From contig NZ_CP127389.1 in assembly GCF_030271835.1 (NCBI RefSeq), positions 3,818,001 through 3,882,000 on the forward strand: a DNA stretch of 64,000 nucleotides. Reading direction: 5' to 3'. This document shows positions 7,631-62,106 of the stretch, in pieces. Source of the stretch: Proteus appendicitidis (GTDB taxonomy: Bacteria; Pseudomonadota; Gammaproteobacteria; Enterobacterales; Enterobacteriaceae). The notes below the pieces were generated by a model. The model was not told the DNA's origin, made no database searches, and saw only the letters and a program-made list of their open reading frames with translations. Numbering within the stretch: position 1 is the first letter of the stretch; each line of letters opens with the position of its first letter. The position numbers and the translations under genes were made by a program.

Positions 7631-7633
7631 CGA

Positions 7634-7664: not shown

Positions 7665-8559
<895 letters not shown>

Positions 8560-15432: not shown

Positions 15433-15484
15433 TTGTGGCGTAGATCATTAAAATACCGTTTTTGTCGAATAAGAAATTCACACC

Positions 15485-16876: not shown

Positions 16877-16896
16877 TCATTAAGTCGTAACAGAAT

Positions 16897-16940
16897 AATA
16901 AAGCGCTATCTTCATAATAAAAAATAGCGCTTTATTTTTA
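16897..16940 (+). terminator. terminator of xanP
   Basis: Stem AATAAAGCGCTAT / ATAGCGCTTTATT with an AT loop and T-rich tail; nearly symmetric, so it may act on both strands. Confidence 0.85.
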
Positions 16941-17030
16941 CGCTAAAACAGGGTCTTTTTACACAAGCATTCCTCTTCAAATTACGATAATTAGTATGTT
17001 TACTCATGTTATCTACAAAAGAGAGCGACT

Positions 17031-17579: not shown

Positions 17580-17685
17580 ACAGTTAAATAATCTTGCTTT
17601 ATATAGTGACGAATACTTGAGCATCGCTTAGTTTTCAGGCATAACTGTATACTGTTTTGATGGAGTATAAAACAGGAGACGGGTT

Positions 17686-28212: not shown

Positions 28213-28222
28213 GAGATAACCA

Positions 28223-46742: not shown

Positions 46743-47753
46743 CTAGCTCTTAAATTTTTTTAATGTATTTAATCGTAAGATCATATCAAATGCTAAAATA
46801 AATTCCTGATGGAGTTTATATTGTCTCTCAATAAAATAAAGATAAACCACTAAAGATAAACTAATAGAATAAATAAGAATAAAATTTTCTGTTATATTAA
46901 TAACATAAAATAACAAACAGATGAGTAACGTACCTACTGGGATCAACGTCATAAACAATAATATACGAAGAAATAGGCTTCTCTTTTTTATCTCAGAAAA
47001 GTCTTCTTCAAAAGAATAGCAAATAATCAATCCCATTAAATAATTAATTTTTCTTGCTTTCGATAATAAAAGCATAATAAACAGAACACTATATAATAAT
47101 ATTATCAATGAAATAATAAATTCAATATTAAGATAACCTTGCTCTAACGAAAAGGCAGCACTTTTATAGAGAGGATGCACAATAGGAAAATTAACTAACA
47201 GACTTAAAATAACTTCATTAACAATGATATAAGATATTTTAAATTTTTTTCTGTTACTATTATTCAAAGAAAAGTTATTTAGATAATGAATTGATTTAGT
47301 AAAATAAAATTTTATTACAACACTCATAAATAGCCATATCATCATCGGCGATAACAAAAAGCCAATAAAAATAATCACATATATTTGATTACCATAATTA
47401 ACTTCTATTAAATAAGAGATACTAAGAAAACTTGTAATCACAACAATTATATAAAATAGTGAGAAAATAAAAAACCGATAAGGTGTTTTATTACTATATT
47501 CATATTCTTTAATGTTATTTTTAAAATAAAACTTCTCAGAGAACGTACAATATAACCAATATATTCGCTCATTTGTAATAGCACTCAAAAAGATCACTAT
47601 AAAAATAGCAAAATTACCAATAAATAATTCCCAGTAACTTAGAACAGTATAATTATTAATAAAGCATAAACTTAATACGCTCGAGGCAACATAAATCGGA
47701 ATTAACATAGAGTAATGATGCGATTGTGCATAATAATGATAATTAGGTAACAT
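46743..47753 (-). CDS. unrecognised polytopic membrane protein, last gene of the acyl cluster
   Basis: 336 aa, extremely hydrophobic, with about eight predicted membrane segments (for example 49-60 and 96-115, 120-145, 210-235, 265-290) and short basic loops. No family recognised; no catalytic motif seen. Good Shine-Dalgarno (AGGAGCGATA) and 23 bp gap after the transacylase gene put it in the operon. It could be a membrane acyltransferase, a flippase-like partner of the permease, or an immunity/anchor protein; none of these is supported by motif. Very AT-rich. Confidence 0.7.
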   Translation of the reverse strand: MLPNYHYYAQSHHYSMLIPIYVASSVLSLCFINNYTVLSYWELFIGNFAIFIVIFLSAITNERIYWLYCTFSEKFYFKNNIKEYEYSNKTPYRFFIFSLFYIIVVITSFLSISYLIEVNYGNQIYVIIFIGFLLSPMMIWLFMSVVIKFYFTKSIHYLNNFSLNNSNRKKFKISYIIVNEVILSLLVNFPIVHPLYKSAAFSLEQGYLNIEFIISLIILLYSVLFIMLLLSKARKINYLMGLIICYSFEEDFSEIKKRSLFLRILLFMTLIPVGTLLICLLFYVINITENFILIYSISLSLVVYLYFIERQYKLHQEFILAFDMILRLNTLKKFKS

Positions 47754-47776
47754 TATCGCTCCTATATATAAGATGA

Positions 47777-48715
47777 TTAAATATAATCATTAAAATGCAG
47801 TATATTTTTATCTTTTAAAGAACATGAACTTTTAGCCAAATAATAGAGTGATCGTTTATCGCCAAGCTCTATAAAATTTTTATATCCTAAACTCCCCCAC
47901 AACGCCATTGTTGCAGTCCATTTAACGGTTTCTGTCAGTTGATTGACTAAGTTTTGCTTTATCGTCTCAATATCTGTCGTTACATCAGCCGAAACATTCA
48001 TCACCACGGGTTTATGGGGTATTGAAAATGGGATTTGTTGCAAAAAATGAGCGAGTAGTTTTTTACCCTCTCTCATTAATTCAGTATGCCAAGCGCCATT
48101 AACGGCTAATTTACTGGCTTCTATTTTCATTTTAACTAATTGATTAACGACCTTACGCACACTTTCATACTCTCCACCAATCACTTGGTAAAGCTCGCTA
48201 TTATCACAACAAACATTTACCAATGTAGCCATATTTTGTTGTTCAATAAGGGCAGATAAAGTCTGATAAGAGCAGCCTTTAACCACATACATAGCCCCTT
48301 TTTTATTTGTAGCCAACTGTTGCATTATTGAAGCGCGGTAATTAATTAGCTTAAATACAGATTCAAGTCCAATCACATTCGCGGCGAATAGCGCTGAATA
48401 TTCACCCGCACTATGACCTGCGTATCCAGCCTCATTAACGCAACAACGTTCGCGCAATAAATAAAGAGTGGCGATATTGATCGTTGTTATCGCCACTTGT
48501 TGATAGTGAGTTTGTATCAACTTATTCATCGGCCCTTTTAAACAAATAGCCCTTACATCAAACCCAGCGATTTCACTCGCACAATTCCAAACCCATTTTA
48601 TCGATGGAGAATCGCTATACGCTCTATTTCCCATACCTAAATAAGGCATACCTTGACCGGGAAAAAATAAAATCATTTCTTCTTTTTGATGATATTCTCT
48701 GTCTGTTAACGGCAT
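47777..48715 (-). CDS. malonyl-CoA:ACP transacylase-like protein (FabD family)
   Basis: 312 aa acyltransferase-fold protein that would load extender units onto the cluster ACP. ILFFPGQGMPYLGMG near 15-28 is the GQG motif; nucleophile elbow GHSAGE has S102; R127 in NYRASIMQQ corresponds to the malonate-binding Arg of FabD; catalytic His is H210 (GAWHTELM). All required residues are present, so it should be active with malonyl substrates. Start follows AGGAGTATTAT. It sits near the 3' end of the operon rather than next to the ACP. Confidence 0.85.
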   Translation of the reverse strand: MPLTDREYHQKEEMILFFPGQGMPYLGMGNRAYSDSPSIKWVWNCASEIAGFDVRAICLKGPMNKLIQTHYQQVAITTINIATLYLLRERCCVNEAGYAGHSAGEYSALFAANVIGLESVFKLINYRASIMQQLATNKKGAMYVVKGCSYQTLSALIEQQNMATLVNVCCDNSELYQVIGGEYESVRKVVNQLVKMKIEASKLAVNGAWHTELMREGKKLLAHFLQQIPFSIPHKPVVMNVSADVTTDIETIKQNLVNQLTETVKWTATMALWGSLGYKNFIELGDKRSLYYLAKSSCSLKDKNILHFNDYI

Positions 48716-48737
48716 ATAATACTCCTAAATATTAATA

Positions 48738-50033
48738 TTATTTTTTAAACTTATTTAAATAGTGACTTATTTTAAAAGTAGATACACAAGAGGCTGTTAT
48801 CGCGGAGAAAAGCAGTAACAAAGGTATTTTTAACATAACATCATATTGCCATAACCAAGAAATCATTATTGGATAGCTGTTATCATCTGATATTTTAATA
48901 TTAATTTGCCTTATATTAACCAACCAAGATAATAAATTCCCAATTAATAATATTGATATTGAAATAGCTATTACTATAAAAATAGCCAACAAAATAAATA
49001 GACGAGAAAAACTGCCCCTCCAAATACCTATTTTATTAAATTCAATAATATCGTTTATAGATTTCTTGATGCTAATGACAACTATTTTCTTTATTATAAG
49101 ATAAGAAAAAACAGTAATAACACTATATAGAAATATAATTGACCAATTAAAGAAGGTCATTATAGATACAATATAATCTTTCCTTTCCATAGCTGAAACA
49201 ATCTTCAAATTTAAGGATTTTTCTTTATTTATTTTCTCTATTATTGATATAACACTATCAATATAATAACTATTTTTTAATAAAATATTTATTCTACTTA
49301 CATTTTTATTCTTTTTTAAATCTTGGATAGTTTCCAATGGAATTTTAATAGTTGCATAAGGGTAAGCCTTTATTTGCGTTTTAAAAATACCACGGACATA
49401 AGTTGGTAGGACTATTTTTTTATTTTCATGATTAACAAATATAACGTTAACCCAATCACCATAATTTATATTTATAGAGCTAGCCATAATTTTATCTACG
49501 GTGATTTCTGTTTTTTTGATATTAGATAACTCACTTCCTAAAGTAGTTAGATCGTATGCCCCTATAGATAATAATAACTGAGGTTCAATCGCTAGCCCCC
49601 AAAAAAACATAATTTTTTTATTAATTAAATTTTCCACCGCCCCTAAAAAAATAATTTGAGGTGAGATTATCTGTATTTTTCCTGATAGTTCAACATTCTT
49701 TGTTAATAAATCGATAATCTCTTCAGCATTTGTTATTTCTAAATAGCTATTTTTATCATCAATATTATTTTTATTCTCTTTCTTATATATTTCGATATGA
49801 CCAAAATTAGAATATGCAACTTGTTCTTTTAATAAAAAATAGATGTGATTATAAAAGCCATGATAAAGAAATGTCACCACAGAAAGTAATGTAAGAAAAC
49901 ATAAACTTCGATAAAAATAACCAATTGAACGATAGAACAAGCCTAAAGTATACTTTATATAAAACCAAGATAATGAAATAGAAAGTAACATTATAAATAT
50001 AATTACTGTGATAAATATAATAATATTTTCCAT
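48738..50033 (-). CDS. MacB/LolC-like ABC transporter permease
   Basis: 431 aa with an N-terminal membrane helix pair (1-30 and 40-60), a long extracytoplasmic domain (about 70-285) and three C-terminal membrane helices (about 295-320, 345-375, 395-415). This is the FtsX/MacB/LolC/E layout used by systems that move lipids, lipoproteins or peptides out of the inner membrane toward the periplasm. Sequence identity to any named member is low. Its start overlaps the stop of the secreted TPR-like gene by 1 bp (TAATG). The only local ATPase gene encodes a degenerate protein. Confidence 0.72.
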   Translation of the reverse strand: MENIIIFITVIIFIMLLSISLSWFYIKYTLGLFYRSIGYFYRSLCFLTLLSVVTFLYHGFYNHIYFLLKEQVAYSNFGHIEIYKKENKNNIDDKNSYLEITNAEEIIDLLTKNVELSGKIQIISPQIIFLGAVENLINKKIMFFWGLAIEPQLLLSIGAYDLTTLGSELSNIKKTEITVDKIMASSININYGDWVNVIFVNHENKKIVLPTYVRGIFKTQIKAYPYATIKIPLETIQDLKKNKNVSRINILLKNSYYIDSVISIIEKINKEKSLNLKIVSAMERKDYIVSIMTFFNWSIIFLYSVITVFSYLIIKKIVVISIKKSINDIIEFNKIGIWRGSFSRLFILLAIFIVIAISISILLIGNLLSWLVNIRQINIKISDDNSYPIMISWLWQYDVMLKIPLLLLFSAITASCVSTFKISHYLNKFKK

Positions 50034-50701
50034 TAATTACTCTCTAATGTCAGAGGCTGAATAACCGCGGTTTTTTCAATAGGTAACCACGGAGGAACGC
50101 CTGTTAAACCATATTTAGCCATTATTTTATGCGCTTCACTTTCTTTAAGTAATTGGGCTATTGCACTCTCTGCTTGTGAAAACTGATGACAACCCCATAA
50201 TGACCGTATATACATATATTTGATCATTGGAATAAGATCAGCACTTATATTGTTATTTTCAAATAATTGCTGACTATCCTTTTTAGCAATAACACAGCGT
50301 CCTAAATCGTGAGGTGTAAAGGCATCCATTCTTAATCGTAAATAAGCTAATCGCCAATTATCTGGATTTTCTTCCACTGCTTCATCAAGATAAAAAAACG
50401 CCTGTTTTATTGCCCTTGCAGCCTGAGAATAATACTTACTGTTATGATAAAATTCAGATAAAAAGACACTTGCATACCCATAAATTATTTTATCAAATTG
50501 ATTATTATTTTTTTTAATATCATTATCTAAATCTGAAATTAATTTTGTCAATTTAGAACTTTCAGTAAAATTATTTAACGATATAAAGATAAAAAAATGA
50601 TTATTAATATTTCTATTATTTGCTTTACTCTCTACTTGAAGAAGAAATAGTAACATCAGAATCAAAACTACAGTAATATTGTTAACGCTTCTCCTCATCA
50701 T
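50033..50701 (-). CDS. exported TPR-like protein of the acyl cluster
   Basis: 222 aa. N-terminal signal peptide (MMRRSVNNITVVLILMLLFLLQVESKA), no lipobox, so periplasmic or anchored. The body is helical (YASVFLSEFYHNSKYYSQAARAIKQAFFYLDEAVEENPDNWRLAYLRLRMDA region, around 75-130) and TPR-like. The start I chose has GGAG six nt upstream; an ATG four codons earlier has none. It overlaps the ATPase-like gene by 20 bp. No known family recognised; it may act as a periplasmic adaptor for the permease. Confidence 0.68.
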   Translation of the reverse strand: MMRRSVNNITVVLILMLLFLLQVESKANNRNINNHFFIFISLNNFTESSKLTKLISDLDNDIKKNNNQFDKIIYGYASVFLSEFYHNSKYYSQAARAIKQAFFYLDEAVEENPDNWRLAYLRLRMDAFTPHDLGRCVIAKKDSQQLFENNNISADLIPMIKYMYIRSLWGCHQFSQAESAIAQLLKESEAHKIMAKYGLTGVPPWLPIEKTAVIQPLTLESN

Positions 50702-51389
50702 ATAATTCTCCATTTTTAAGTCTCATAATATTATTCACATCCAAAACGGAGCAATGACAACTCGTTGTTAATAATATTGGCATTGATAGCTCAGTGTGTA
50801 TTTTTAATAATATTTGAATAAAATCATAAAAATTATCTTGATTGAAATTACCATTATTATAATTAGCAATAATACACTTCGGTTTTTTCGCCAAAACTCT
50901 AGCGAAAGCCACTTTTAATAATTGTTCTGATGATAGTCTTTTTAGTCTCTGATGATAAAGTTTTTCTATCCCCATAAATTTAAGTGAATTTATAATTTGA
51001 CACTCTCTGTTTTTTTTATATTTATAGTTTAATATTGAATAATAAATATTATCAAACACGCTATAATCATTAAAAAAATAGTTATTTCTAGAAATAAAAC
51101 CGATCATCTCATTTCTTAATAATGCACGCTGTTTTTCATTCAATGAATGTAAATAAAATCCTGATAAATAAGCATCGCCAGTATATTTAATATCGATACC
51201 TGAAATAATACTAATCAACGCGTCTTCTTCATTATCATACTGATATTTAATTAATGTAAAATCATCATTATTTATATTAAACGTGATGTTTTTTAATATG
51301 CTTTTTTGATTACTCTTATCACCAACGCGCTTATTAATATTAGAGAGAGAAATCAATGCTATTTGAGACGCTTTTTTTATTACACTCAT
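50682..51389 (-). CDS. degenerate ABC ATPase (LolD/MacB-like pseudo-ATPase)
   Basis: 235 aa that aligns along its whole length with LolD/MacB ATPases (ILKNITFNINNDDFTLI, YLHSLNEKQRALLRNEMIGFI, NGELYDEE) but lacks every catalytic motif. The Walker A position (48-58) reads KYQYDNEEDAL instead of GxxGxGKST; the Q-loop Gln is R101; the signature is LSSEQ (152-156); Walker B (170-178) reads PKCIIANYN with no Asp-Glu; the H-loop His is S210. The reading frame is intact, has normal operon spacing, and the adjacent permease is also intact. It therefore looks like a maintained pseudoenzyme rather than a decaying gene. Confidence 0.78.
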   Translation of the reverse strand: MSVIKKASQIALISLSNINKRVGDKSNQKSILKNITFNINNDDFTLIKYQYDNEEDALISIISGIDIKYTGDAYLSGFYLHSLNEKQRALLRNEMIGFISRNNYFFNDYSVFDNIYYSILNYKYKKNRECQIINSLKFMGIEKLYHQRLKRLSSEQLLKVAFARVLAKKPKCIIANYNNGNFNQDNFYDFIQILLKIHTELSMPILLTTSCHCSVLDVNNIMRLKNGELYDEEKR

Positions 51390-51400
51390 AAATTACCCTA

Positions 51401-52435
51401 CTATTGCTTCCAACAATCAAGTAGCCAAGTGCCATTTTCTCCATCAAATGCACTCAAAATATGATGTGAGGAAGAACCTCCTATTTTTTGTAAATGATCA
51501 AACATAAGAACAGGCGTGATAAATCCACTATCACCATAAAGGCGGTTTAAAAAATAACGATTAATATGAGAGGGTAACATTGACAATGTTGCTTCTAGAA
51601 TAGAAATATATCTATAAGTTAGTAAAGCAGCAGTATAAATTGACTTAGTATTTTCATTAATTAATTCATCCCACTCATTCCTTAGTTTTTTTATTGCCTT
51701 TCTTTTATTTTTATCAATAGAAAAATATCGATTAATATAAATAGAAATATCTGATCGCACTTTTTTACTTACAATAATACAAGCCACTCTTTCAATACTG
51801 TTGATATGATTAAGTGTTTTGGGTTTAAAAAAAGAGGCTAATGGTTGTCTGTCTATTTCACTAAAAGATAAAATAGGTATGGCTCGAAAACCGCCACAAA
51901 TAAAAATATTATCCAAAAGAGCACTATTAATTAATTTTTGTGCTAATAGTAATGCTGACATCATGCCATTACGTTCACCTCTTATCTTACAAGAGAAATT
52001 TTTGATGCTATATTTTTTTATGATATTTCTAGGAATAATATTAAGAGTAAAAGCATCTCTTAAGCTATCAATCTGCTCAAAAGCGGTTAATTCTCCCCAT
52101 GCATCAATATAAATAATGCCATTTCTCTCTTTTTTTAATTGAAATTGTGACTGAGTATCTAAACAAGAAAATGCTTGATCAACTACGTTCTCTATCGCAT
52201 ATAAATAGGGGCGACAATTTGTTTTTCTTATTCCCTCACGTAAGTACATATCATAATTGACCCCATAGCGTTGAAAACTCCAACTCGTTTCTCCGCTCTT
52301 TTTAACGGCCAAACGTAACATATGTGATTCCCATACGTTGTACCATGAAGGAATAAAAGGCATAAGTGGCTCTTGTGGCTCGTAAAAAGCATAAGCCGCC
52401 ACATTAATGGCTTCAGAGGATATTAATAGGCTCAT
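51401..52435 (-). CDS. highly divergent ketosynthase-like (thiolase-fold) protein
   Basis: 344 aa. The segment IRGERNGMMSALLLAQKLINSALLDNIFICGGFRAIP (about 158-194, shown here in part) has the shape of the ketosynthase nucleophile helix and the following VxGGxE strand, but without the active-site Cys. The C-terminal SAFDGENGTWLLDC recalls the ketosynthase end strand. No other catalytic residue can be placed. The call rests on pattern and on its position after two ketosynthase genes; it overlaps the upstream ketosynthase-like gene by 4 bp. Possibly a structural partner. Confidence 0.5.
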   Translation of the reverse strand: MSLLISSEAINVAAYAFYEPQEPLMPFIPSWYNVWESHMLRLAVKKSGETSWSFQRYGVNYDMYLREGIRKTNCRPYLYAIENVVDQAFSCLDTQSQFQLKKERNGIIYIDAWGELTAFEQIDSLRDAFTLNIIPRNIIKKYSIKNFSCKIRGERNGMMSALLLAQKLINSALLDNIFICGGFRAIPILSFSEIDRQPLASFFKPKTLNHINSIERVACIIVSKKVRSDISIYINRYFSIDKNKRKAIKKLRNEWDELINENTKSIYTAALLTYRYISILEATLSMLPSHINRYFLNRLYGDSGFITPVLMFDHLQKIGGSSSHHILSAFDGENGTWLLDCWKQ

Positions 52436-53649
52436 CTTTGATCCTTATTTGCCATTAATATCATGGCAATAATAGAACCATCCATACCTAAACCTATTTT
52501 TAATACTGGTTTGGCATTATATTTTACACACCCTTGATTTACTAAAAAATGAAGCCCCATAGCATCATCTATTGGATAGTGTGTATTAGATGAGATCAGC
52601 CTATTATTTTTTAATGAATCAGCGATAATCATTAAATCAATAATACCAGAGCAATTAGAAACATAGCCTATCTGCCCTTTATAACTAATAATGGGAATAG
52701 GCTGTTTAAAAATATTAGCAATCGCTATTGTTTCAGCTTTATCACTAATAATCGAACCATTGCCATGAATAAAAATGGCGCCTATATCACTCGGAAGATA
52801 ATGGCTAATATCAAGAAGCTGTGAAATAGCTTTTGATATTGTATAAAAATTAAATAATGTTCCTCCCATTGCGCGTTCAGCATTACTTTGCATAAAACGG
52901 GTATGGCTGATATAAGCGGGAGCTAGGTATTTTCTGGCGTGAGTATGTTGTTGATTTTCTAAAATTATGACTGCATAACCGTCTGATAAAGTGACTCCAT
53001 CACTATATTTACTCAGCGGTTGAGCATATTCTTCGACCAACATACCTTGGCTATCCATAAAAGCAATATCTTGCAAAAGTAGGCTATTCCACGATAAAAC
53101 AACCACAAAATCAGCCATATCTTGGCTTATTTCATTATGCCCTATGTGGACAGCCATTAATGCAGAGTTACTGGCACAATAAATAGGGATAGGTGGAAAA
53201 TCTAACTGATATTCAGTAAACAATTTATTTGCTAATTCATCCTGCGCATAAGATGTCGCATGTAGTGATTTTATTTGTGGAGAATATTGAACATCTTCCA
53301 CATCATTTTTATCATAAAATCCTTGATAATCAATAAAATCTGCTCTTGGACCGTGCCCTGCAAGATACATTTTTACGCGTGAGCAACGAAACTTTTCAAG
53401 AGTTATATTGGCGCGTCTAAGGCTGTTGTTAATTAATCGCGTTAGCTTTTCAAAAATATTATTTTCTTTATTCTTATATTGGATAACCGCAGGATTGTGA
53501 TTAAGTTTAAAATATTCTGTAAAATAATCGTCGGTAAAATACTTTTCTGTTTTAATGGGTGATTTTGATAATAACTGTTCAGAAAGTAGATTAAAATTGG
53601 CCATTGAAGGTAAATCTATTTCCCATCCACTTATTGCAACATTTTTCAT
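52432..53649 (-). CDS. ketosynthase-like protein with altered active site
   Basis: 405 aa beta-ketoacyl synthase-fold protein. Nucleophile Cys is C158 (PIYCASNSALMAV), first His H295 (FIHGNGS), Lys retained in YKGQIGYVSNCSG, but the second catalytic His of the KSxxGH motif is replaced by Y329. Decarboxylative condensation is therefore doubtful; acyl transfer to another acceptor through Cys-His remains possible. Overlaps the upstream fused ketosynthase gene by 4 bp (ATGA) and the next gene likewise. Confidence 0.72.
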   Translation of the reverse strand: MKNVAISGWEIDLPSMANFNLLSEQLLSKSPIKTEKYFTDDYFTEYFKLNHNPAVIQYKNKENNIFEKLTRLINNSLRRANITLEKFRCSRVKMYLAGHGPRADFIDYQGFYDKNDVEDVQYSPQIKSLHATSYAQDELANKLFTEYQLDFPPIPIYCASNSALMAVHIGHNEISQDMADFVVVLSWNSLLLQDIAFMDSQGMLVEEYAQPLSKYSDGVTLSDGYAVIILENQQHTHARKYLAPAYISHTRFMQSNAERAMGGTLFNFYTISKAISQLLDISHYLPSDIGAIFIHGNGSIISDKAETIAIANIFKQPIPIISYKGQIGYVSNCSGIIDLMIIADSLKNNRLISSNTHYPIDDAMGLHFLVNQGCVKYNAKPVLKIGLGMDGSIIAMILMANKDQR

Positions 53650-56204
53650 AAAAATTTCCTTATGATAATTGCATAGTGATTTCCCCCTTCTGATGAGCCA
53701 ATAATTAAAGCATTTTTTATTCGCTTATTTATGGGTTGAGTAACAAAATTAATATCATCAGCAATAAAATTTTCTGTATAAGGAATAGGAATAATGTTGC
53801 TACTTTCCATCATATGAATAACTAAAGAGAGTGCTAATATTCCAGAGCACGATTCGACTAAGCCAAAAAAAGCATTATAATTCACCACAGGCACAACATT
53901 AGCCCCTTGATAGAATATTTGCCGAATCGCTTTTATTTCAACGCAATCATTCTCTTTATTTCCATCACTAGTACCACAGATAAGATCAATCTCTTCAAAA
54001 CTAAGTTGCGCCTCGGATAATGCTTGTTTAATTGCTTTACATAGCGCTGCCACTCTATCGGGAATATTTTCATCTTCTAAAAAAGCATTATCATTCGCTT
54101 TACCATAGCCTATAATTTCAGCATAAATTTTAGCACCACGATTGCGGGCATATTCCTTATCTTCAAGAAATAACATACAAGCACCCTCACCGGGGATATA
54201 GCCTGTTTTCGTGTTAGAGTAAACCTGATAATCTGTTGTGTTCGTGGTCAGATTCACTTTCTTACTCATCGCTTGAAAATAGAGCGAAATTGAGCTGAAA
54301 TGCTCATCAGCCCCACCAACAATCACTTGAGGCTGTAAATCTTGTCTAATAATTTCATAGCCATAGGTTAATGCACCTAATGCAGCATTCACTCCCGTTG
54401 CCAAGGTGGTTGTATACCCTTTGATCCCCTCAGTAATAGCACAAAATGTTGATACTGCACTCATTAACGTGCCTGGAAACTCTGAAGTTCTTACTTTTTT
54501 AGGATCTGGGATTAAACTTTGTAAATAGCGATTAACGGTACTTTGTGGCCCTTTTGACATGCCTAAAATAAAGCCTAAATCATCACCATTACGTTTAATT
54601 TTTCGTCTAGCATCAGCGAGTGCTTCATTTAACGCTAATAGTGCATAAGTGCCACTAGGAATAGCTTTTCTAGGATCATAACAACGTAATAATTTTTTCG
54701 GATTAGCCCCAGTAATAGCATGATAAAAAGCGCTATTATTCAAACGATCATCGATATTAGGATCAAAATAAGGATGTCCTAATGATTGCTCAAAATCGTT
54801 ATCTTTTATCACTACGGACATTAATTTATCGATATCTTTTTGCACATCATTATCAAATACAATTTTTTTTAATGTCCCTTGTTTTCCGGATAAAATAGCC
54901 GATATCATTTCCATTACATTATTTCCAATGGATGTAATAGCCCCTATTCCGCTAATAACAACACGTTTTGCTTTATATTCTTTCGTTTTTTTATCTGTAA
55001 TATAAGGGCTAGCAATAATAGAGCAATTATTTCCTCCAAAGGCATAATTATTTTTCATAAATAATTTTACTTTTTTATCTTGAAATAAATTCGGCACATA
55101 ATTTAAATCACAGGTATGTCTTGGCTGAGTGAAATTTAACGTTGGTGGGATTTTATCTTCGGCTAAACTAATAAAGCAGGCTATGATTTCAACGATACCT
55201 GCAGCACCAATATTATGCCCCACATAAGATTTTGTGGAGCTTAATGGAATACTATCAATATTAGGAAATACTTTTTTCATCGACATTGTTTCAATGCGAT
55301 CATTTGCTTCTGTTCCTGTGCCATGTACATTAATATAATCGATATCATTAGGAGTAATACCCGCATTATCTAAAGCTTTGCGCATGACTTGTACGGCACC
55401 ATTTCCTCGTGGATCGGGGCCAGTTTCATGATAAGCATCACAAGAAGTAGCATAAGAAATAATTTCACCATACATTGTTGCTCCACGAGCGACTGCATGT
55501 TCATAGTCTTCCAAAACTAATGCGCCAGCACCTTCGCCAATTGACATACCTGGCGTACCAGAAAAGGGAGAAGTTGGCGTAGTTTTCATCACGTTTAATG
55601 CATAAAAACCAGCAAAGGTAGGGAGATAAATAGGTTCTGTACCTACAGCTAAAACAACTGGATTTTTTCCATTTTGGATATAATCATAACCCATGCCAAT
55701 TGCATTAGAGCTTGCTGTACATGCTGTCGCAACTAACTCAACGCCGCCTCGCAAGCCCAGTAAACTTGAGACACTGGAGCAACAAGATGAGAACCCTCCT
55801 GATAAAATGGCCTTTTTAATAGAAAAATCATCAATATGCTGTTCAAACAGAGGTAAAAAAGCTTCAGTACCCGCAGAAGAGACACCAACGATCATTGCCG
55901 TGTTATCTAATATCGTTTTATTTTCTGCTAAACCTGCTTGTAGTAGCGCTTCATAGCAGACTCGATATGCCCACAATGCCGCATTATCTAATGATCTAGC
56001 AATATGTTCAGGTATATCTGAATAATCTAGTGGCATCTCAATTTCAGATGCATTGGCATTTTCAAACCATTTTAAATAACGTTTACTTGGCTTAATATTA
56101 CACTGCCTATTAAAAAGAACTTGTTTAAATTGAGGTACATCTTTAGCTAAAGATGATAAAATCCCCATTCCGGTTATTACAACCCGACGGCGTCTACTAT
56201 TCAT
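53646..56204 (-). CDS. fused ketosynthase plus inactive ketosynthase (KS-CLF-like)
   Basis: 852 aa, two complete FabF-type domains in one chain. Domain 1 (about 6-400) has C162 (VATACTASSNAIG), H294 (NVHGTGTEAND), H330 (KSYVGHNIGAAG) and FGGNN, a full Cys-His-His triad, so it should elongate acyl-ACP. Domain 2 (about 414-852) keeps the fold, but the Cys position is T603 (TTLATGVNAALG), the first His is replaced around C743 (ICGTSDGNKEND) and the second is missing (NYNAFFGLVESCSG). This is the logic of the KS-alpha/KS-beta (chain-length factor) pair of type II polyketide and aryl polyene systems, here fused in one gene. Confidence 0.88.
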   Translation of the reverse strand: MNSRRRRVVITGMGILSSLAKDVPQFKQVLFNRQCNIKPSKRYLKWFENANASEIEMPLDYSDIPEHIARSLDNAALWAYRVCYEALLQAGLAENKTILDNTAMIVGVSSAGTEAFLPLFEQHIDDFSIKKAILSGGFSSCCSSVSSLLGLRGGVELVATACTASSNAIGMGYDYIQNGKNPVVLAVGTEPIYLPTFAGFYALNVMKTTPTSPFSGTPGMSIGEGAGALVLEDYEHAVARGATMYGEIISYATSCDAYHETGPDPRGNGAVQVMRKALDNAGITPNDIDYINVHGTGTEANDRIETMSMKKVFPNIDSIPLSSTKSYVGHNIGAAGIVEIIACFISLAEDKIPPTLNFTQPRHTCDLNYVPNLFQDKKVKLFMKNNYAFGGNNCSIIASPYITDKKTKEYKAKRVVISGIGAITSIGNNVMEMISAILSGKQGTLKKIVFDNDVQKDIDKLMSVVIKDNDFEQSLGHPYFDPNIDDRLNNSAFYHAITGANPKKLLRCYDPRKAIPSGTYALLALNEALADARRKIKRNGDDLGFILGMSKGPQSTVNRYLQSLIPDPKKVRTSEFPGTLMSAVSTFCAITEGIKGYTTTLATGVNAALGALTYGYEIIRQDLQPQVIVGGADEHFSSISLYFQAMSKKVNLTTNTTDYQVYSNTKTGYIPGEGACMLFLEDKEYARNRGAKIYAEIIGYGKANDNAFLEDENIPDRVAALCKAIKQALSEAQLSFEEIDLICGTSDGNKENDCVEIKAIRQIFYQGANVVPVVNYNAFFGLVESCSGILALSLVIHMMESSNIIPIPYTENFIADDINFVTQPINKRIKNALIIGSSEGGNHYAIIIRKFL

Positions 56205-56262
56205 GGTAATTCCTATATAATATCTATTAGAATTAATAAATATCTTTTTAAAATTTTAAGAT

Positions 56263-57417
56263 TTAATTATTAATATATTCTCTTTCAAGATAACTATTTT
56301 CAGTTGGATTAATAATTAAACTTAGATTATTAACAAAAGGAATACTTGTAGTAATAAAGTTAATATCACCATTAGCTGTTTTTATTTTATAATCATCAAT
56401 ATCAACGTAGGCAAAATCCCGCTTTAATAATATTCTTCCGACATAATTATTTAATATAAAAGAGTACCCTGCTTGGATCACGACACCTATCTTTTCATTT
56501 TTATAATAGACTTGATCGCCTTCTGAGATATGGGGGTCTTCATGCACGTTGATTATTCTTGCTCCAACTATTTTCTGAGTAACACCACTCTCAGAGCGTT
56601 GCTTTATCGCCTCTAGTCCAATAAATTCATCCTTATCGTAACTAATTGCCCACTGCATTTGTAACTCAATGGGACATCGGCTAAATGGGTTAATCACTTG
56701 TGGCTCCCAGCAAGGATTTTCGAGTCGAATATTTTTTAAATCATCGATTCCCCCTATTTCTAAATCATATTTCTCAGCCAATGCACTCAAATTTTGCCAA
56801 AGTTGAATTAATTCACCTTCCTTACCCATAATATGGTAACAATATTCACCGTGTTTACCTACACGCATAGCAATCACATCTTCGTTCACATACATAAACT
56901 CATGAAAGGGTAATCCGATAATATCCATACCAAATATTTCAGATAGAATTTCCCAAGCATAAGGTCCTTCTAGACAGATCATTCTCCAATTTGATGAGAG
57001 AGGCGTAATAGTATCAATCTGATAACTTTCTGACTGTTCTTCTTCATCAAATACTTTTTGTACATGCTGACATAATAATTCGCTATTCATCCACTCAGAA
57101 ATTAAGAAATAATGTTCGTTATCGCATAACACATAAGCATCACTCATTATCTTTCCTTCTTTATCAAGAAGAAGTGTATAGAGTAATTGTTCATCACGAA
57201 TAGATGAAATATCCGCAGAAATAAGATAATTTAATAATCGCCAAGCATCACTGCCAGAAATTTTCACCATGCCATAATGAGAAAAATCTGTCATTAATAT
57301 ACTATTTCTTACAGAAAAATACGCTTTATGTTCATTAGAATAACTTTTTGGAAGCATGACGCCATTATATTCCGCAAATAATATTTTATCTTTATTGTCC
57401 ATTTCAAAATATTTCAT
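56263..57417 (-). CDS. GcvT-like (aminomethyltransferase-family) folate enzyme
   Basis: 384 aa GcvT/DmdA-fold protein (MTDFSHYGMVKISGSDAWRLLNYLI near 42-66; MICLEGPYAWEIL; GKHGEYCYHIMG; DEFIGLEAIKQR). The folate-domain Asp that corresponds to E. coli GcvT D101 is retained as D93 (EGKIMSDAYVL). GcvH and GcvP are not linked, so it is not part of a glycine-cleavage operon. In this context a tetrahydrofolate-dependent one-carbon transfer to or from the acyl product or a head group is inferred. It lies between the ACP and ketosynthase genes, in the same operon. Confidence 0.8.
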   Translation of the reverse strand: MKYFEMDNKDKILFAEYNGVMLPKSYSNEHKAYFSVRNSILMTDFSHYGMVKISGSDAWRLLNYLISADISSIRDEQLLYTLLLDKEGKIMSDAYVLCDNEHYFLISEWMNSELLCQHVQKVFDEEEQSESYQIDTITPLSSNWRMICLEGPYAWEILSEIFGMDIIGLPFHEFMYVNEDVIAMRVGKHGEYCYHIMGKEGELIQLWQNLSALAEKYDLEIGGIDDLKNIRLENPCWEPQVINPFSRCPIELQMQWAISYDKDEFIGLEAIKQRSESGVTQKIVGARIINVHEDPHISEGDQVYYKNEKIGVVIQAGYSFILNNYVGRILLKRDFAYVDIDDYKIKTANGDINFITTSIPFVNNLSLIINPTENSYLEREYINN

Positions 57418-57457
57418 AACATCTCCAATTAATAAAAAAGATATTTCTTAATTTCAA

Positions 57458-57760
57458 TTATACATCTTCTTTTTCTTGTAACTTATTTAAAATAAATGTT
57501 GTTAAGCTATTTATCGTCCTCATATAATAGGGATCGTCTCCCTCTGTTACTTGAATATCAAACTCATCATTAAGAAAAACAATAATTTCTGTTGCATCAA
57601 CGGAATCTAATTTTAATCCACTACCAAATAAGGGAGTATCATCATCAATTTGATCAATAGTTTTATGTAAATTAAGCCGTTCAATAAGCCCCTCTTTTAC
57701 TCGCTTTAACATTTTTTTTCTTTGTTCAATTTTCTCATTTAAACTAGTATAATTTTCCAT
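57458..57760 (-). CDS. acyl carrier protein of the cluster
   Basis: 100 aa, acidic, helical. The phosphopantetheine attachment site is S53 in GLKLDSVDATEII; a Lys-rich N-terminal extension of about 20 residues (EKIEQRKKMLKRVKEG) precedes the usual ACP fold. Substrate carrier for the ketosynthase, reductase and dehydratase encoded around it and presumably activated by the AcpS-like enzyme of the same operon. Confidence 0.9.
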   Translation of the reverse strand: MENYTSLNEKIEQRKKMLKRVKEGLIERLNLHKTIDQIDDDTPLFGSGLKLDSVDATEIIVFLNDEFDIQVTEGDDPYYMRTINSLTTFILNKLQEKEDV

Positions 57761-57772
57761 AATATTAATATC

Positions 57773-58351
57773 CTAAGTTTCATTTTTATCTGAATGGTAA
57801 TATGCTCTAAAATTTACTATTGTGCCATTTGCAATTATTTTCTTTCCAACTCTAGCCTCAACTGAATAATGTTTAAAATTATTCTCATCAGAAAATAATA
57901 AAATACTTTTTATTTCTATTGTATCTCCGGGATATGCAGAATTTTTATATCTTAAGTTTTGTGAAGCCAGTACACCGGAAACTTTACTTCGATGCTGAGT
58001 TAAAATTATTTCTGATGCCGGTTCATTTATTGCTTTTGATATTTCCTTGAATGTTTTTAATTCAATATTTCGCTCTGCTTTATAAATCAAACAGAAATCA
58101 TCGATAAAAGATAAATACTCGCTAGCTTGACCAAAGATTTCAGCGACCACAATTCCTGGTACCACAGGATCGCCAGGGAAATGCCCTAATAAATACGGAT
58201 CATTAAAAGTGACATGTTTGATAGCTCTAATTATGGATTTTTCACTTGGTACAAAATCGATTATTCTATCTACCATTATTGTTGGTTGTCGCCATGCCCC
58301 TATTTTTAAAAATAGAGCCGGTGGCAGTAACGATTGATTATAGAGGCTCAT
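57773..58351 (-). CDS. FabZ-like 3-hydroxyacyl-ACP dehydratase
   Basis: 192 aa hot-dog protein, longer than housekeeping FabZ (about 150). The catalytic helix LLGHFPGDPVVPGIVVAEIFGQ has the His and the Glu of FabZ. RQPTIMVDRIIDFVPSEKSI is the N-terminal FabZ segment. Should dehydrate 3-hydroxyacyl-ACP to trans-2-enoyl-ACP. Twelve bp from each neighbour, so tightly coupled to ACP and reductase genes. Confidence 0.88.
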   Translation of the reverse strand: MSLYNQSLLPPALFLKIGAWRQPTIMVDRIIDFVPSEKSIIRAIKHVTFNDPYLLGHFPGDPVVPGIVVAEIFGQASEYLSFIDDFCLIYKAERNIELKTFKEISKAINEPASEIILTQHRSKVSGVLASQNLRYKNSAYPGDTIEIKSILLFSDENNFKHYSVEARVGKKIIANGTIVNFRAYYHSDKNET

Positions 58352-58363
58352 AACGTTTATCTC

Positions 58364-59119
58364 TCATCGCATCACCATGCCACCATCAACGATTAACGTT
58401 TGCCCAACGATATAGCTAGATGCCTCAGAGCTTAAAAATACAATGGTATTGGCAACTTCAGAGCTTAATCCTAATCGCTGTAATGGAATAATGGATTTAA
58501 TATGACGTACCACTTGTCGTGATACTTTTTTAACCATATCAGACTCAATCATGCCCGGAGCCACTGCATTAACTCGAATGCCTTTATTCGCTAACTCCGC
58601 AGCCAAGGTATGTGTGAAACCAATAATACCTGCCTTAGCTGCGCTATAGTTACTTTGGCCAATACTCGGTACAATTCCCGCAATGGAGGCAACATTAATA
58701 ATGGTCGCCTTTTCTGCCGACCTTAAGAAAAATAATAACTGTTTAGTAAATTGGCAAGTTCCTAATAAATTCGTTTTAATAACATATTCAAATTCATCCA
58801 TATTTATAGTAGAAAATAATTCATCTTTAATAACACCTGCATTATTTACTAATACATGAATAGCGTGAACATTCGCTTTGAGTATTGCTAAAAAATCACC
58901 AATCGATTTATTATTATTGATATCACATTGTAATATATGCAAATAGTCACAATCTTTATTTTCTTTTTTTAATTTATCTAAGTTACTTCTATTTTTGTGA
59001 TATATAGCATAAACATGACATTGTTGTTCAAGATATTTATGGCAAATTGCTATGCCTACATCGCCATTGGCTCCCGTAACAATAACATTCTTATTTTTTA
59101 AATCAGAATATATAAACAT
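58364..59119 (-). CDS. FabG-like 3-oxoacyl-ACP reductase (SDR)
   Basis: 251 aa classical short-chain dehydrogenase. NADPH site TGANGDVGIA, NNAG motif VNNAGVIKDE, catalytic Ser in VASIAG and YxxxK in YSAAK, C-terminal SYIVGQTLIVDGGMVMR. Reduces 3-oxoacyl-ACP. The ATG giving MFIYSDLKNKN lies 22 bp after the AcpS stop; an upstream ATG would overlap it. Confidence 0.9.
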   Translation of the reverse strand: MFIYSDLKNKNVIVTGANGDVGIAICHKYLEQQCHVYAIYHKNRSNLDKLKKENKDCDYLHILQCDINNNKSIGDFLAILKANVHAIHVLVNNAGVIKDELFSTINMDEFEYVIKTNLLGTCQFTKQLLFFLRSAEKATIINVASIAGIVPSIGQSNYSAAKAGIIGFTHTLAAELANKGIRVNAVAPGMIESDMVKKVSRQVVRHIKSIIPLQRLGLSSEVANTIVFLSSEASSYIVGQTLIVDGGMVMR

Positions 59120-59141
59120 AATAGAACACCTATAAAATACA

Positions 59142-59510
59142 TCAATTAAAAATAGCAATAGCTACTGCGTAATGTTCACAATGAGAAATACTTAATGATG
59201 ATTTAATTAGCTTTCTTTTCTTAAATAAATTATAAAAATTTCCAGTGAAAAAATAAAAAGGCGCTCCATATTTATCATGTCTTATTTCAATGTCATGAAA
59301 TAAGATACCCAATCTAAATCCTGTACCTATTGCTTTTACAGCAGCTTCCTTCGCAGCCCAAAAGCCTGCAATACGATGATAGTTTTCGTTAACTACACCA
59401 ATACTTTTCCTTTCATAGTCTGTTAATAATCGTTGAATTAAATGTTCTTTATTTCTGGTGATTGCAATAGTAACTTTTTTTATTTCTATAATATCAGTTC
59501 CAATTCTCAT
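59142..59510 (-). CDS. holo-ACP synthase (AcpS-type phosphopantetheinyl transferase)
   Basis: 122 aa AcpS-family enzyme that transfers 4'-phosphopantetheine from CoA to the ACP serine. [10 protein letters not shown] carries the Mg-binding Asp; [16 protein letters not shown] carries the Glu and Lys of the second motif; [17 protein letters not shown] is the family C-terminus. A dedicated copy at the head of the operon; the housekeeping acpS is expected elsewhere. Confidence 0.9.
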
Positions 59511-59543
59511 ATTTTCTAATACTCAAGATAATGTATTATTTAA

Positions 59544-59572
59544 TATATGAGCGATAAAACATCGCTCATATA
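59544..59572 (-). terminator. hairpin between tpsA and the acyl cluster
   Basis: ATATGAGCGA / TCGCTCATAT stem with a 7 nt loop, followed on the minus strand by ATTAAATAAT rather than a U run. Possible weak terminator; read-through from tpsA into acpS is conceivable. Confidence 0.55.
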
Positions 59573-59586
59573 CAGATTAGAAAATA

Positions 59587-62106
59587 TTATTCATTTATAG
59601 GTCCAATAATTTTACCCTTGTTGATAAAAGTACCCCGATTGTTAATGGTAATACTGTTTCTACCAACAATAGTGCCTGATTTCTCATTAGTAATGTTTTC
59701 GCCAGAAATAGTAGAATCTTTTATTGAATTGAGAATACCGTAGTTAATAATATTTCCTTTCACATTTAATTCGAAACTATTTTTACCAGACATAATACTA
59801 TTAGCAGCGTTGGTATATTTGCCGTTAACCGTTACACGTAAATGTTCCACACCGGAAATTACACCATGATTTTCAAAATCTCGATTAACCGCCACCTCAT
59901 TATCACCACTTGATGCAATAACACCTTTTAAATTATTACTTTCAACCGTACCGGTGTTATTATTTTTCAATGTGTCAGTTTGTAATTTTAATTTATCTCG
60001 GCCAAATAACGTTCCTTGTAAATTGGAAAAAGAGCTTGTCACTACAGAGGCATTTTTATATGATGCGATAATACCATTTTCATTATTAACAGAGGTAAAT
60101 TCAATATCAATATCACCATTTTCTGTCACAATACGCCCTCCTTTATTTTCCAATAATTTATGACCTTGTAATTTCATTTCTCCTTTACTAATTAATCCCC
60201 CTTTCTGATTGGATTGACCCAAATAGAATCCCATTTCTGTTTTAAAATCTGAACTATTATTATTAGTGAGTTCTGGTGTATCAATTTCTAATTTCTGCTG
60301 AGTAATCACAAACCCTGATATATTGTTAAATTTATCCGTTTTAAAATAAAGGGAATCACCTTTAATAACGCCTTTATTATTATTTATATAAGGTGCGTTA
60401 ATAGTAACCTTGTCGCCCTCTAAATAGAAAACGCCAAAGTTATTATCTAATGTTGTCGATAAAGTCACATTAGCCCCGTTTTTCGATGCTAAACCACCAT
60501 AGAGGTTTTTGATCTTAGTGCTATAAAACGTTAAGAAACCACCGGATTTAATCTGTCCCCATTGATTAGTAATATCGCCTTTGTTAGTAAAACTCATATT
60601 ACCATCTGTAGCAATAATGCCTTTGTCATTAACTAGCCCAGCAATATTAACTGTCATACCATCTTTACCGCTAAGAATACCTAATGAATCATCACTTGCA
60701 GTATCTGCGGTTATACCGGCATTTTTAAGTGCTTTACCATTAGTATCAATTTCAATATAGGTGACTGAACGTAGACGACTATTAGTATTATTCATTACAC
60801 CACTATTAATTTTAATGCCACCGGATGCATCAATATAAGCATCAATATTATTGAAGTCTTTTAGGTTTGTATTAATATCAATCACATTCTGAGAATTAAT
60901 TTCTCCATTTTTGTTATTAAATAAACCACTGTTAATTGCAATGCCATTTGTTGCTGCAAGACCAAGATTGCTACCCACCGTTGCTGTATTTGTGATTGTT
61001 TTTCCATTAGTTCGAATATCTAATTTATCTTTACTCGCAATATAGGACGCATTATTTTTTAATTCACCACTTTTGATTGTGACATTTCCAATAGCAGAAA
61101 TATTACTACCAAGGATATTATCGAGTTTCTCCCCTTTAGTATCTATTACAATGGTTTTCAAACTTTCTATTTCACCTGTACTATTTTTAACGCCTTTATC
61201 GAAAACAATATTAATATCACCTTTTGATAAAAATTTACCTTTATTATTTTCAAGTAAACCATTATGAGTAAGATCAATTCCCCCCTCTGCAGTTTCAACG
61301 CTACCATTATTGATAAGTGGTGAATTATTTTCTGTGCCAACAAATTTTAGTAACAAGCTTCTAACCCCAGCATTTTTGATCACTTGTAAGCTATATTTAC
61401 TAATTGGCCCTGTTGGCTTTTGCGCAATAACTGTATTGTCTTGTGCTTTAACTTCATTAGTCCCGGTTATAACATTGACGTTAATACCTGATGCATTCAC
61501 TGGCTCTTCAATAGAGACATTACGAGCAATGAAATCAACCTGTGTTGAAACTTTATCAAAGACAGTATTACCTTTAACGGTAATATTTCCTTTTTCAACT
61601 TTATAACTATCAACCATGTCATTTTGTACATTTACAGTACCTGTTGTCAGAACCACGCGATCGGTACTAAGGAAATTACAGCTACTACAAATAATCCCCG
61701 CAGGATTAGATAAAATCACGCGCGCATTCGTTCCTGCTACCTCAACAGGACCATTTAGCATAATGGCTTTTTTAGCGTTAACCTCAAGAATAATATCTTT
61801 TGCAGCACCGCTTGATAAATTACTATTACCTGCAATATGCCCAGATAATTGGGTCTCTGCACCATCTGTACTATTATTTAATATTAATCCCACTTCAGGA
61901 ACATCAAAACTGGTCAGTAAGTTACGCGAATAACCATTAACTACGGCTGCAATATTAAGAACATTAACATTACTATTTTCTTGCTCTTGTTGCGCCACGA
62001 TATTAGCCATAGGATCAGCTTGTACCACAGTCGTCATATTTAACATTGATAACACAGAGAAAACTAATAAATTAATTTTAAAAGAAGCTTTTTTTTTCAT
62101 ATTCAT
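59587..62106 (-). CDS. two-partner-secretion exoprotein (TpsA, filamentous haemagglutinin-like)
   Basis: 839 aa. Signal peptide (KINLLVFSVLSMLNMTTVVQA-DPMAN), then a TPS haemagglutination-activity domain to about residue 270, with VILSNPAGIICSSCNFLSTDRVVLTTG holding the NPxGI motif and a CxxC pair typical of the TPS domain. The rest is a right-handed beta-helix of repeats ('NNKGxIxSxGxxxI', 'LxNNxGxI'). It ends at GKIIGPINE with no C-terminal toxin, intein or release module. No tpsB transporter gene is next to it, so it is an orphan relying on a TpsB elsewhere. Start ATG follows AAGGTAACTATA. Confidence 0.88.
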   Translation of the reverse strand: MNMKKKASFKINLLVFSVLSMLNMTTVVQADPMANIVAQQEQENSNVNVLNIAAVVNGYSRNLLTSFDVPEVGLILNNSTDGAETQLSGHIAGNSNLSSGAAKDIILEVNAKKAIMLNGPVEVAGTNARVILSNPAGIICSSCNFLSTDRVVLTTGTVNVQNDMVDSYKVEKGNITVKGNTVFDKVSTQVDFIARNVSIEEPVNASGINVNVITGTNEVKAQDNTVIAQKPTGPISKYSLQVIKNAGVRSLLLKFVGTENNSPLINNGSVETAEGGIDLTHNGLLENNKGKFLSKGDINIVFDKGVKNSTGEIESLKTIVIDTKGEKLDNILGSNISAIGNVTIKSGELKNNASYIASKDKLDIRTNGKTITNTATVGSNLGLAATNGIAINSGLFNNKNGEINSQNVIDINTNLKDFNNIDAYIDASGGIKINSGVMNNTNSRLRSVTYIEIDTNGKALKNAGITADTASDDSLGILSGKDGMTVNIAGLVNDKGIIATDGNMSFTNKGDITNQWGQIKSGGFLTFYSTKIKNLYGGLASKNGANVTLSTTLDNNFGVFYLEGDKVTINAPYINNNKGVIKGDSLYFKTDKFNNISGFVITQQKLEIDTPELTNNNSSDFKTEMGFYLGQSNQKGGLISKGEMKLQGHKLLENKGGRIVTENGDIDIEFTSVNNENGIIASYKNASVVTSSFSNLQGTLFGRDKLKLQTDTLKNNNTGTVESNNLKGVIASSGDNEVAVNRDFENHGVISGVEHLRVTVNGKYTNAANSIMSGKNSFELNVKGNIINYGILNSIKDSTISGENITNEKSGTIVGRNSITINNRGTFINKGKIIGPINE

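Follow-up and report, generated by a model that had tools for sequence, protein, structure and literature searches.

The Gene Run and the Exoprotein Gene Beside It

Thirteen tightly packed open reading frames (ORFs) occupy positions 46743–59510 of the window, by which we mean the whole 64,000-nucleotide stretch of Proteus appendicitidis DNA that was analyzed. All lie on the minus strand, and the ORF list confirms the coordinates that an earlier sequence-only reading had given. Neighboring genes are separated by 23, 22, −1, −32, 11, −4, −4, 58, 40, 12, 12, and 19 bp. The largest gap is 58 bp, within the 60 bp that had been claimed; overlaps exist as described, but one measures 32 bp and exceeds the proposed range of 1–20 bp. 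The run has 31.2% GC versus 39.7% for the window outside 46743–62106, and 49081–49140 contains exactly 9 G/C, which bears out its reported AT-richness relative to the flanks. The thirteen genes are real, but the unit is larger than had been thought: an FHA-like two-partner-secretion (TPS) exoprotein gene at 59587–62106, also on the minus strand, lies 76 bp upstream of the run. All fourteen ORFs are open in the window. Predicted promoter-like sites number 100 against 97.5 expected, and terminator-like sites 6 against 6.5; at these near-chance numbers neither is informative.

The gene order is AcpS, ketoreductase (KR), dehydratase (DH), acyl carrier protein (ACP), GcvT, KS/CLF, g7, g6, ATPase, TPR, permease, and then FabD and YcdU. 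The earlier annotations hold by Pfam and NCBIfam profiles and by motifs; for g6, ketosynthase (KS) likeness comes from an AlphaFold2 fold match.

A Type II Acyl Assembly Line

The holo-ACP synthase AcpS (59142–59510; PF01648) scores 83.5 bits against TIGR00516, over the cut-off of 59.8. The FabG-like KR, an SDR protein (58364–59119; listed ORF starting at a TTG, 59158), keeps Y-x-x-x-K and reaches 228 bits against TIGR01830, below the cut-off of 297.75. It is followed by a FabZ/FabA-like DH (57773–58351; PF07977, E 1.6e-13) with the motif LLGHFPGDP and by the ACP (57458–57760; PF00550), whose LDSVDAT is identical in 47 of 47 aligned orthologue rows. Such rows number 20 to 50 per gene (one for CapB), because matches that contained internal stops or lay on the minus strand were skipped. 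A FabD-like malonyl transacylase (AT; 47777–48715) scores 192 bits against TIGR00128 (cut-off 260.9), and G-H-S-x-G-E is present in 46 of 47 rows.

The KS-CLF gene (53646–56204) encodes a fusion of a ketosynthase that keeps its active-site residues with a CLF-like ketosynthase that lacks the catalytic Cys. In the N-terminal half, C162, H294, K325, and H330 are invariant in 50 of 50 rows. In the C-terminal half, aligned position 605 is Val in the window and Cys in none of 47 rows, the commonest residue being Glu (18). This position comes from an alignment of 47 KS-CLF rows (lengths 830–860, no X) with 48 g7 rows; G604, a candidate read by eye, was rejected because alignment of both halves and g7 gives 605. 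The protein thus has the type II PKS arrangement of a KS with Cys-His-His and Lys beside a partner without Cys. Its best NCBIfam match is fabF (450 bits). It is not a multidomain PfaA of the PUFA synthase kind: TIGR02813 yields 101 bits against a cut-off of 1010, and the proteins here are separate and smaller.

Two further KS-fold proteins follow. In g7 (52432–53649), recognized by Pfam KS domains, the Cys is replaced by Ser (S160, 48 of 50 rows), the first His is kept (H295, 50 of 50), and the second is replaced by Tyr (Y329, 50 of 50). Neither Pfam nor NCBIfam profiles recognize g6 (51401–52435). With its AlphaFold2 model (mean pLDDT 90.5) as query, Foldseek leads to KAS III and PKS KS proteins of the thiolase/KS folds (best E 6.1e-12), and g6 has no invariant Cys. 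The family architecture, in which an active KS is joined to a CLF-like KS and two more KS-fold proteins lack a conserved catalytic Cys, appears to be new.

AcpS, ACP, the FabD-like AT, the fused KS-CLF, KR, and DH make up a complete predicted type II elongation set. No enoyl reductase was recognized by Pfam or NCBIfam profiles among the fourteen proteins of the window version. The acyl assembly line stands as originally read. So does its one-carbon-type enzyme, a GcvT-like folate protein (56263–57417; PF01571, E 4.1e-30). Its D93, unchanged in 50 of 50 rows, corresponds in the alignment to residue 96 of chain 1woo_A, which we take to be the catalytic Asp of GcvT-fold enzymes. An apparent loss of this residue (S92) was rejected once the numbering placed residue 96 of 1woo_A at D93. 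The protein is not called a glycine cleavage T-protein by the gcvT equivalog (TIGR00528, 98.8 bits, cut-off 235.85).

A Putative Exporter With a Degenerate ATPase

Related clusters carry a Lol-kind exporter composed of an ATPase, a permease, a helper, a LolA-like carrier, and a putative outer-membrane protein, joined in some clades by a two-partner exoprotein. In the window, g5 (50682–51389) is an ABC ATPase of the LolD kind (TIGR02211, 97 bits, cut-off 307.75) without Walker A, Q-loop, signature, or Walker B. Of 46 aligned rows, 42 retain these motifs; they are lost in all four aligned Morganellaceae rows and in none of the 42 others. A fifth Morganellaceae locus, L064, has an ATPase ORF, read by eye in the absence of a tblastn match, that also lacks Walker A. 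The next gene (50033–50713) encodes a probably exported, weakly TPR-like protein with sub-threshold TPR matches and orthologues in 46 of the 48 long loci described below. The diverged ABC permease (48738–50033) has no Pfam match of its own and was identified through the Enterobacter orthologue in the same place, which has FtsX and MacB_PCD domains and scores 85 bits as lolCE, below the cut-off. The intact Enterobacter exporter resembles LolCDE-LolA in that LolD and LolCE are the best NCBIfam models of its ATPase and permease and in that the carrier of relatives exceeds the LolA_like cut-off (PF17131). It differs in that both cluster proteins fall below the equivalog cut-offs and in that the catalytic motifs are missing from the window ATPase.

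A LolA-like carrier and a putative outer-membrane protein, whose place is between permease and FabD, were found in 43 of 48 long loci. They are absent from the window, where 22 bp separate those two genes, and tblastn found no match to them in L024, L027, or L064. The claim of self-sufficient export in this strain is thus unsupported, because the ATPase motifs are lost and both of these proteins are missing. The Morganellaceae lineage is not alone in such loss: searches of L060 and L063 likewise did not find LolA-like carrier, outer-membrane protein, ATPase, or permease. The last gene of the run (46743–47753) encodes a YcdU family membrane protein, which occupies the same place as, and aligns with, the gene named ycdU in E. 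coli RM12761. It has no Pfam or NCBIfam family match; its model is all-helical (mean pLDDT 89.7), and since the best PDB match has an E value of 5.1, we propose no function.

Distribution and Evolution of the Cluster

Related clusters occur across the Enterobacterales and in Pseudomonas and Paraburkholderia, among gut and plant bacteria. We searched 52 loci, all found via KS-CLF, of which 48 span at least 19 kb. KR, DH, ACP, GcvT, KS-CLF, g7, and g6 co-occur in 48 of 48, which argues that the gene set is not due to chance. Gene set and order are common to these loci, E. coli RM12761, and an Enterobacter plasmid. By tblastn, YcdU was detected in 34 of 48 loci, but a missed match does not mean absence, as ORFs in L040, L074, and L039 demonstrate. 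Several additional matches, in which g7 or extra FabF-like genes hit the window KS-CLF, were disregarded.

Within Proteus, KS-CLF is present in 3 of 20 genomes, and the other 17 hold 249–2951 bp at the same site. The Morganellaceae form one clade (100/100), nested in a group that also contains the TPS-pair clade (99/98); the simplest history is therefore a loss on a single stem. Their version of the cluster, without TpsB, LolA-like carrier, or outer-membrane protein and with the ATPase catalytic motifs lost, appears to be new. Between the window and P. mirabilis, dN/dS is 0.07–0.35 in 13 of 14 genes (0.25 for the degenerate ATPase), values that are rough because dS is 0.64–1.13; these 13 genes thus appear to be under purifying selection. 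Against the more distant L025 the ATPase value rises to 0.52. The dN/dS table was compiled without the KR of L024. Breaks in some relatives could mean that decay has begun locally: in L027, KR and permease each match in two pieces, the L071 KS-CLF matches in many, and the L065 copy is shortened. A 564-bp break in the KS-CLF of L027 proved to be a run of N and was rejected.

The cluster had been thought undescribed, but it is already known from E. coli. A 20.3-kb version is covered to 80% or more in 367 of 5426 complete E. coli genomes, and O145:H28 strain RM12761 has the same genes in the same order, TpsA through YcdU. RM13516, which also carries the KS region, is described in PMC3893438 as carrying the whole of OI-47, and PMC5567499 labels OI-47 “adhesin and fatty-acid biosynthesis.” We infer that the cluster is of the OI-47 kind, the identity being drawn from RM12761, RM13516, and that label rather than from EDL933 itself. 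Compared with the E. coli form, the window version lacks TpsB, carrier, outer-membrane protein, and ATPase motifs, and its KS-CLF is 56.6% identical to the copy in NZ_CP134663.1. In K-12, ycdU is intact and ymdE is an annotated pseudogene near IS3, with no other cluster gene annotated alongside. These are the last two genes of the cluster, and the pair looks like a remnant of it, which is new; the portion of PMC4951805 consulted calls both functionally uncharacterized and draws no link to such a pathway. As the earlier reading supposed, the literature searched contains nothing on the product of the cluster. A Dickeya solani lead was dropped, its NRPS/PKS clusters being modular in the part of the source available.

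The TpsA Exoprotein

The tpsA-like gene (59587–62106) encodes an FHA-type exoprotein of 839 aa and has no adjoining tpsB. Its TPS secretion domain is recognized by PF05860 (84 bits, cut-off 33.5) and TIGR01901 (46 bits, cut-off 29.1). Its best cluster TpsA match outside the Morganellaceae reaches 332 bits over 867 columns, versus 92 bits over 370 columns and 80 bits for the two other TpsAs of its own genome, both partial in the fetched loci. TpsB was not found in the window, L024, L027, or L064, where TpsA is present; the two TpsBs of the genome adjoin its other TpsAs. TpsA adjoins the cluster in the TPS-pair clade and, without TpsB, in the Morganellaceae. On a separate branch of the tree, three Erwinia loci have a TpsA of 732–741 aa, without TpsB, downstream of ycdU. 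L051 has a tblastn match to TpsB and none to TpsA.

Discussion

The locus is best read as a specialized pathway for an acyl lipid that, in this lineage, can no longer rely on its own ancestral Lol-type export route. On balance, we think it probable that it belongs to an orphan, widespread acyl-lipid biosynthesis/export cluster of the OI-47 kind, that the export route has been dismantled in the Morganellaceae, and that the product is still made, as retention of the remaining genes suggests. The acyl assembly line and the one-carbon-type enzyme of the earlier interpretation are kept, whereas its novelty and its autonomous export are not. KS-CLF would elongate a starter by malonyl units into an acyl chain that is hydroxylated or unsaturated, and the GcvT-like enzyme may perform a one-carbon step. 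To judge from their residue changes, g7 (Ser-His) and g6 may pair as a heterodimeric acyltransferase, passing the chain from ACP on to an acceptor. The exporter of relatives would extract the product from the inner membrane, hand it to the LolA-like protein for transport, and deliver it to the cell surface, where TpsA may cooperate with it. In the Morganellaceae, with TpsB, carrier, and outer-membrane protein gone and the ATPase presumably a pseudo-ATPase, the product would stay in the cell envelope or exit via a housekeeping route such as LolCDE.

Other explanations deserve weighing. An iterative KS-CLF with KR and DH could instead build a conjugated polyene that is exported to the outer membrane, as in aryl polyene or highly reducing type II PKS systems; the earlier reading had suggested this. 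Aryl polyene clusters have aryl starter supply through ammonia-lyase or ligase genes, MMPL export, and an outer-membrane lipid destination. The KS-CLF, KR, DH, and ACP logic, the AT, the destination, and the lack of a recognized enoyl reductase in the window agree with this, and FlxB, an SDR model for flexirubin, is a further match of KR at a score below cut-off. However, no aryl-starter (ammonia-lyase or ligase) or MMPL exporter family was found among the fourteen proteins scanned, export is of the ABC type, and KS-CLF is fused and scores best with fabF. Moreover, an extra SDR in the Serratia cluster matches the enoyl reductase FabL best, below cut-off, and would remove double bonds there. 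A polyene product is a guess, and we consider this pathway rather unlikely.

The cluster might also supply an acyl group for its own TpsA, by protein lipidation or membrane anchoring, so that biosynthesis and exoprotein form one system. The placement of TpsA beside the cluster in the TPS-pair clade, the Morganellaceae, and the Erwinia branch fits this idea. However, 24 of 48 long loci have no TpsA in the covered stretch, and, of 28 type-3 genomes (three searched twice), 23 have TPS domains somewhere, yet coordinates and contig extents place one beside the cluster in the three Erwinia only; contig extents excluded L045, L046, L048, and L049 as further cases. We therefore regard TpsA acylation as unlikely. 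In an elaborate variant, the pathway makes a dedicated acyl chain for a secreted β-helix exoprotein, with the g7–g6 Ser-based heterodimer as the transferring enzyme; one lineage would have shed TpsB, carrier, outer-membrane protein, and ATPase activity jointly, and its ABC pair would survive as a non-hydrolysing scaffold handing envelope lipid to an orphan TpsA. We regard this as distinctly improbable. Least credible to us is that the window copy is a decaying island that lost export first and whose biosynthetic genes are on their way out. Its patchiness in Proteus, the breaks in L027, and its AT-richness accord with decay, but the fourteen open ORFs, the low dN/dS values of 13 of the 14 genes compared, and the intact core residues make it very improbable.

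The orphan acyl-lipid pathway that we favor comprises about seventeen genes, occurs in E. coli and many other Enterobacterales, and has no product in the literature searched. Through it, ycdU and ymdE of K-12 acquire a likely origin and a context that can be tested. In the Morganellaceae, nature has set up a test of whether a pseudo-ATPase remains useful once its transporter partners have gone. Small TpsA exoproteins accompany the cluster on two tree branches, which suggests possible cooperation between an envelope lipid and an adhesin-like protein. The TPS pair of the OI-47-type cluster is possibly OtpA/OtpB of E. coli O157:H7, which the review PMC5422565 lists as a two-partner system without a known function.

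Proposed pathway

Our analysis supports a reading of the cluster as a type II acyl assembly line whose product, in the window strain, would be made without an exporter of its own. What the sequences directly establish are the parts of the cluster and the states of their active sites. The acyl carrier protein (ACP) would carry a chain built from malonyl units, on which the cluster enzymes of the window version would perform no enoyl reduction. The pathway would include a folate-dependent one-carbon step, and two further ketosynthase (KS)-fold proteins, g7 and g6, would release or transfer the chain. Ancestrally, the product may have been exported by a Lol-like route; in the window strain, it is expected to be made, but not to be exported by the cluster's own machine. 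Taken as a whole, from assembly line to a product made without its own export, we consider this reading somewhat better than even. We are far more confident of its class, a type II acyl assembly line of the kind represented by OI-47 of Escherichia coli, than of the later steps.

Gene organization and active sites

Thirteen open reading frames, all on the minus strand, occupy 46743–59510; no gap between neighbors exceeds 58 bp, and four pairs overlap, by 1, 4, 4, and 32 bp. The GC content of this interval is 31.2%, versus 39.7% in the window outside 46743–62106. A fourteenth gene (59587–62106, minus strand), 76 bp upstream of acpS, encodes TpsA, an 839-aa protein with a two-partner secretion (TPS) domain. 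The genome is a single 4.1-Mb contig.

Pfam and NCBIfam recognize AcpS, ACP, a FabD-like malonyl transacylase, a FabG-like ketoreductase (KR), and a FabZ-like dehydratase (DH). The motif LDSVDAT is present in all 47 aligned ACPs. The KS and its CLF-like partner are fused in one 852-aa protein (KS-CLF); the Cys, His, Lys, and His of its N-terminal half are conserved in all 50 aligned rows. In its C-terminal half, the position aligned with the catalytic Cys (residue 605) is Val in the window protein, Cys in none of 47 rows, and most commonly Glu (18/47). In g7, the third KS-fold protein, this Cys is Ser in 48 of 50 rows, the exceptions with Cys being loci L063 and L068; the first His is retained and the second is Tyr in all 50. 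No family match was found for g6, the fourth, which is predicted to adopt a thiolase fold (mean pLDDT 90.5; best Foldseek E value 6.1e-12). The invariant columns of its alignment include no Cys, and a Cys at residue 149 is frequent and unconserved. Thus, only one of the four KS-fold units looks competent for condensation. The GcvT-like protein retains the Asp aligned with residue 96 of 1woo_A, which we take to be catalytic.

Distribution and architectures

A pattern search returned 50 loci, for the most part from Enterobacterales, the others being from Pseudomonas, Paraburkholderia, one Acinetobacter record, Desulfatitalea, and MAGs. Of 52 loci searched, every one found through KS-CLF, the 48 that span 19 kb or more were used to count gene content. 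KR, DH, ACP, GcvT, KS-CLF, g7, and g6 each occur in all 48; AcpS in 47; the TPR-like protein, permease, and FabD each in 46; the ABC ATPase in 45; the LolA-like protein and putative outer-membrane protein (OMP) each in 43; TpsA in 24; and its partner TpsB in 21. YcdU was matched in 34, an undercount. Full-length KS-CLF at ≥55% identity is present in 10 of 197 related genomes, the window's own included. The closest carriers found, by KS-CLF identity, are Proteus mirabilis ATCC 29906 (88%) and P. myxofaciens (78%), followed by Providencia burhodogranariea (76%) and Morganella morganii (71%). The cluster is also present, with 81% identity at the DNA level, in two P. mirabilis records of a plasmid collection, NZ_OL790812.1 and NZ_OL790811.1; at 4.1 Mb each, these records look like chromosomes.

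Three architectures were seen. One, in Enterobacter, Klebsiella, Kosakonia, and E. coli among others, joins TpsA and TpsB to the cluster with LolA-like and OMP genes. The second has LolA-like and OMP genes without the TPS pair, and at least 17 such loci, L046 included, have an extra SDR; the best NCBIfam model for that of Serratia L026 is the enoyl reductase FabL (184 bits, cutoff 328). The third is the Morganellaceae form of the window.

Several loci have individual features. Serratia L026 also encodes a 246-aa protein (14827–15567) between g6 and the ATPase, with a subthreshold DUF6134 match. The MAG loci L063 (16037–18685) and L068 (6033–8564) have a second KS-CLF fusion within the same cluster; these are the two with Cys in g7. 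L053, labeled Acinetobacter sp. ANC 4558, lies beside Pantoea inside the Enterobacterales part of the KS-CLF tree, reflecting either transfer or a mislabeled contig. The mobilizable 322-kb Enterobacter bugandensis plasmid pEC105227L (L075) carries a TPS-plus-acyl cluster flanked by two IS6 transposase genes (5495–6187 and 27713–28405) that share one protein accession and point in opposite directions. In E. coli K-12 MG1655 (L084, 9545–10830), ycdU is intact, and a ymdE fragment is the sole other cluster gene annotated beside it; 24 of 30 E. coli records listed keep only the ycdU end. The ycdU gene may have its own role.

The Morganellaceae variant

The ATPase, of the LolD kind, has intact Walker A, Q-loop, signature, and Walker B motifs in 42 of 46 aligned rows; the other four (window, L024, L025, and L027) are all Morganellaceae. 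Morganella L064 gave no tblastn match for the ATPase, and on visual inspection, an ORF at the corresponding position has no Walker A. LolA-like, OMP, and TpsB genes were not found in the window, L024, L027, or L064, L025 being too short to judge. The KS-CLF tree unites the five Morganellaceae rows in a single clade (100/100), which groups with the TPS-pair clade (99/98). Because of this grouping, these three genes and the ATPase motifs were probably lost on the Morganellaceae stem. LolA-like, OMP, TpsB, ATPase, and permease genes were also not found in the distant loci L060 and L063, which fall outside the clade.

Relative to the P. mirabilis copy, dN/dS is 0.07–0.35 in 13 of the 14 genes, and for the degenerate ATPase it is 0.25 against P. 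mirabilis and 0.52 against P. myxofaciens, all rough values at high dS. The variant therefore looks maintained rather than simply rotting. Among 20 Proteus genomes, the cluster is confined to one site, with 15.87 kb between the flanking genes in two genomes, a cluster split over contigs in one, and 249–2951 bp in 17. In P. burhodogranariea (L027), KR and permease (7004–7760 and 16674–17905) each match in two pieces without N between them; the interruption in the KS-CLF of this genome is a stretch of N.

Over its full length, the window TpsA scores up to 332 bits with cluster TpsAs outside Morganellaceae, versus 92 and 80 bits with the two other TpsAs of its genome, of which only 776–804 residues were available. 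Both TpsB genes of the genome adjoin those two. The TpsA tree places the Morganellaceae group, on a long stem (1.91), beside Enterobacteriaceae cluster TpsAs with moderate support (87/87). A functional link between the cluster and an exoprotein is plausible. In a search of 28 genomes with the second architecture, three of which were searched twice, a TPS domain could be placed beside the cluster only in three Erwinia, where a TpsA of 732–741 aa lies downstream of ycdU and the examined stretch has no TpsB match.
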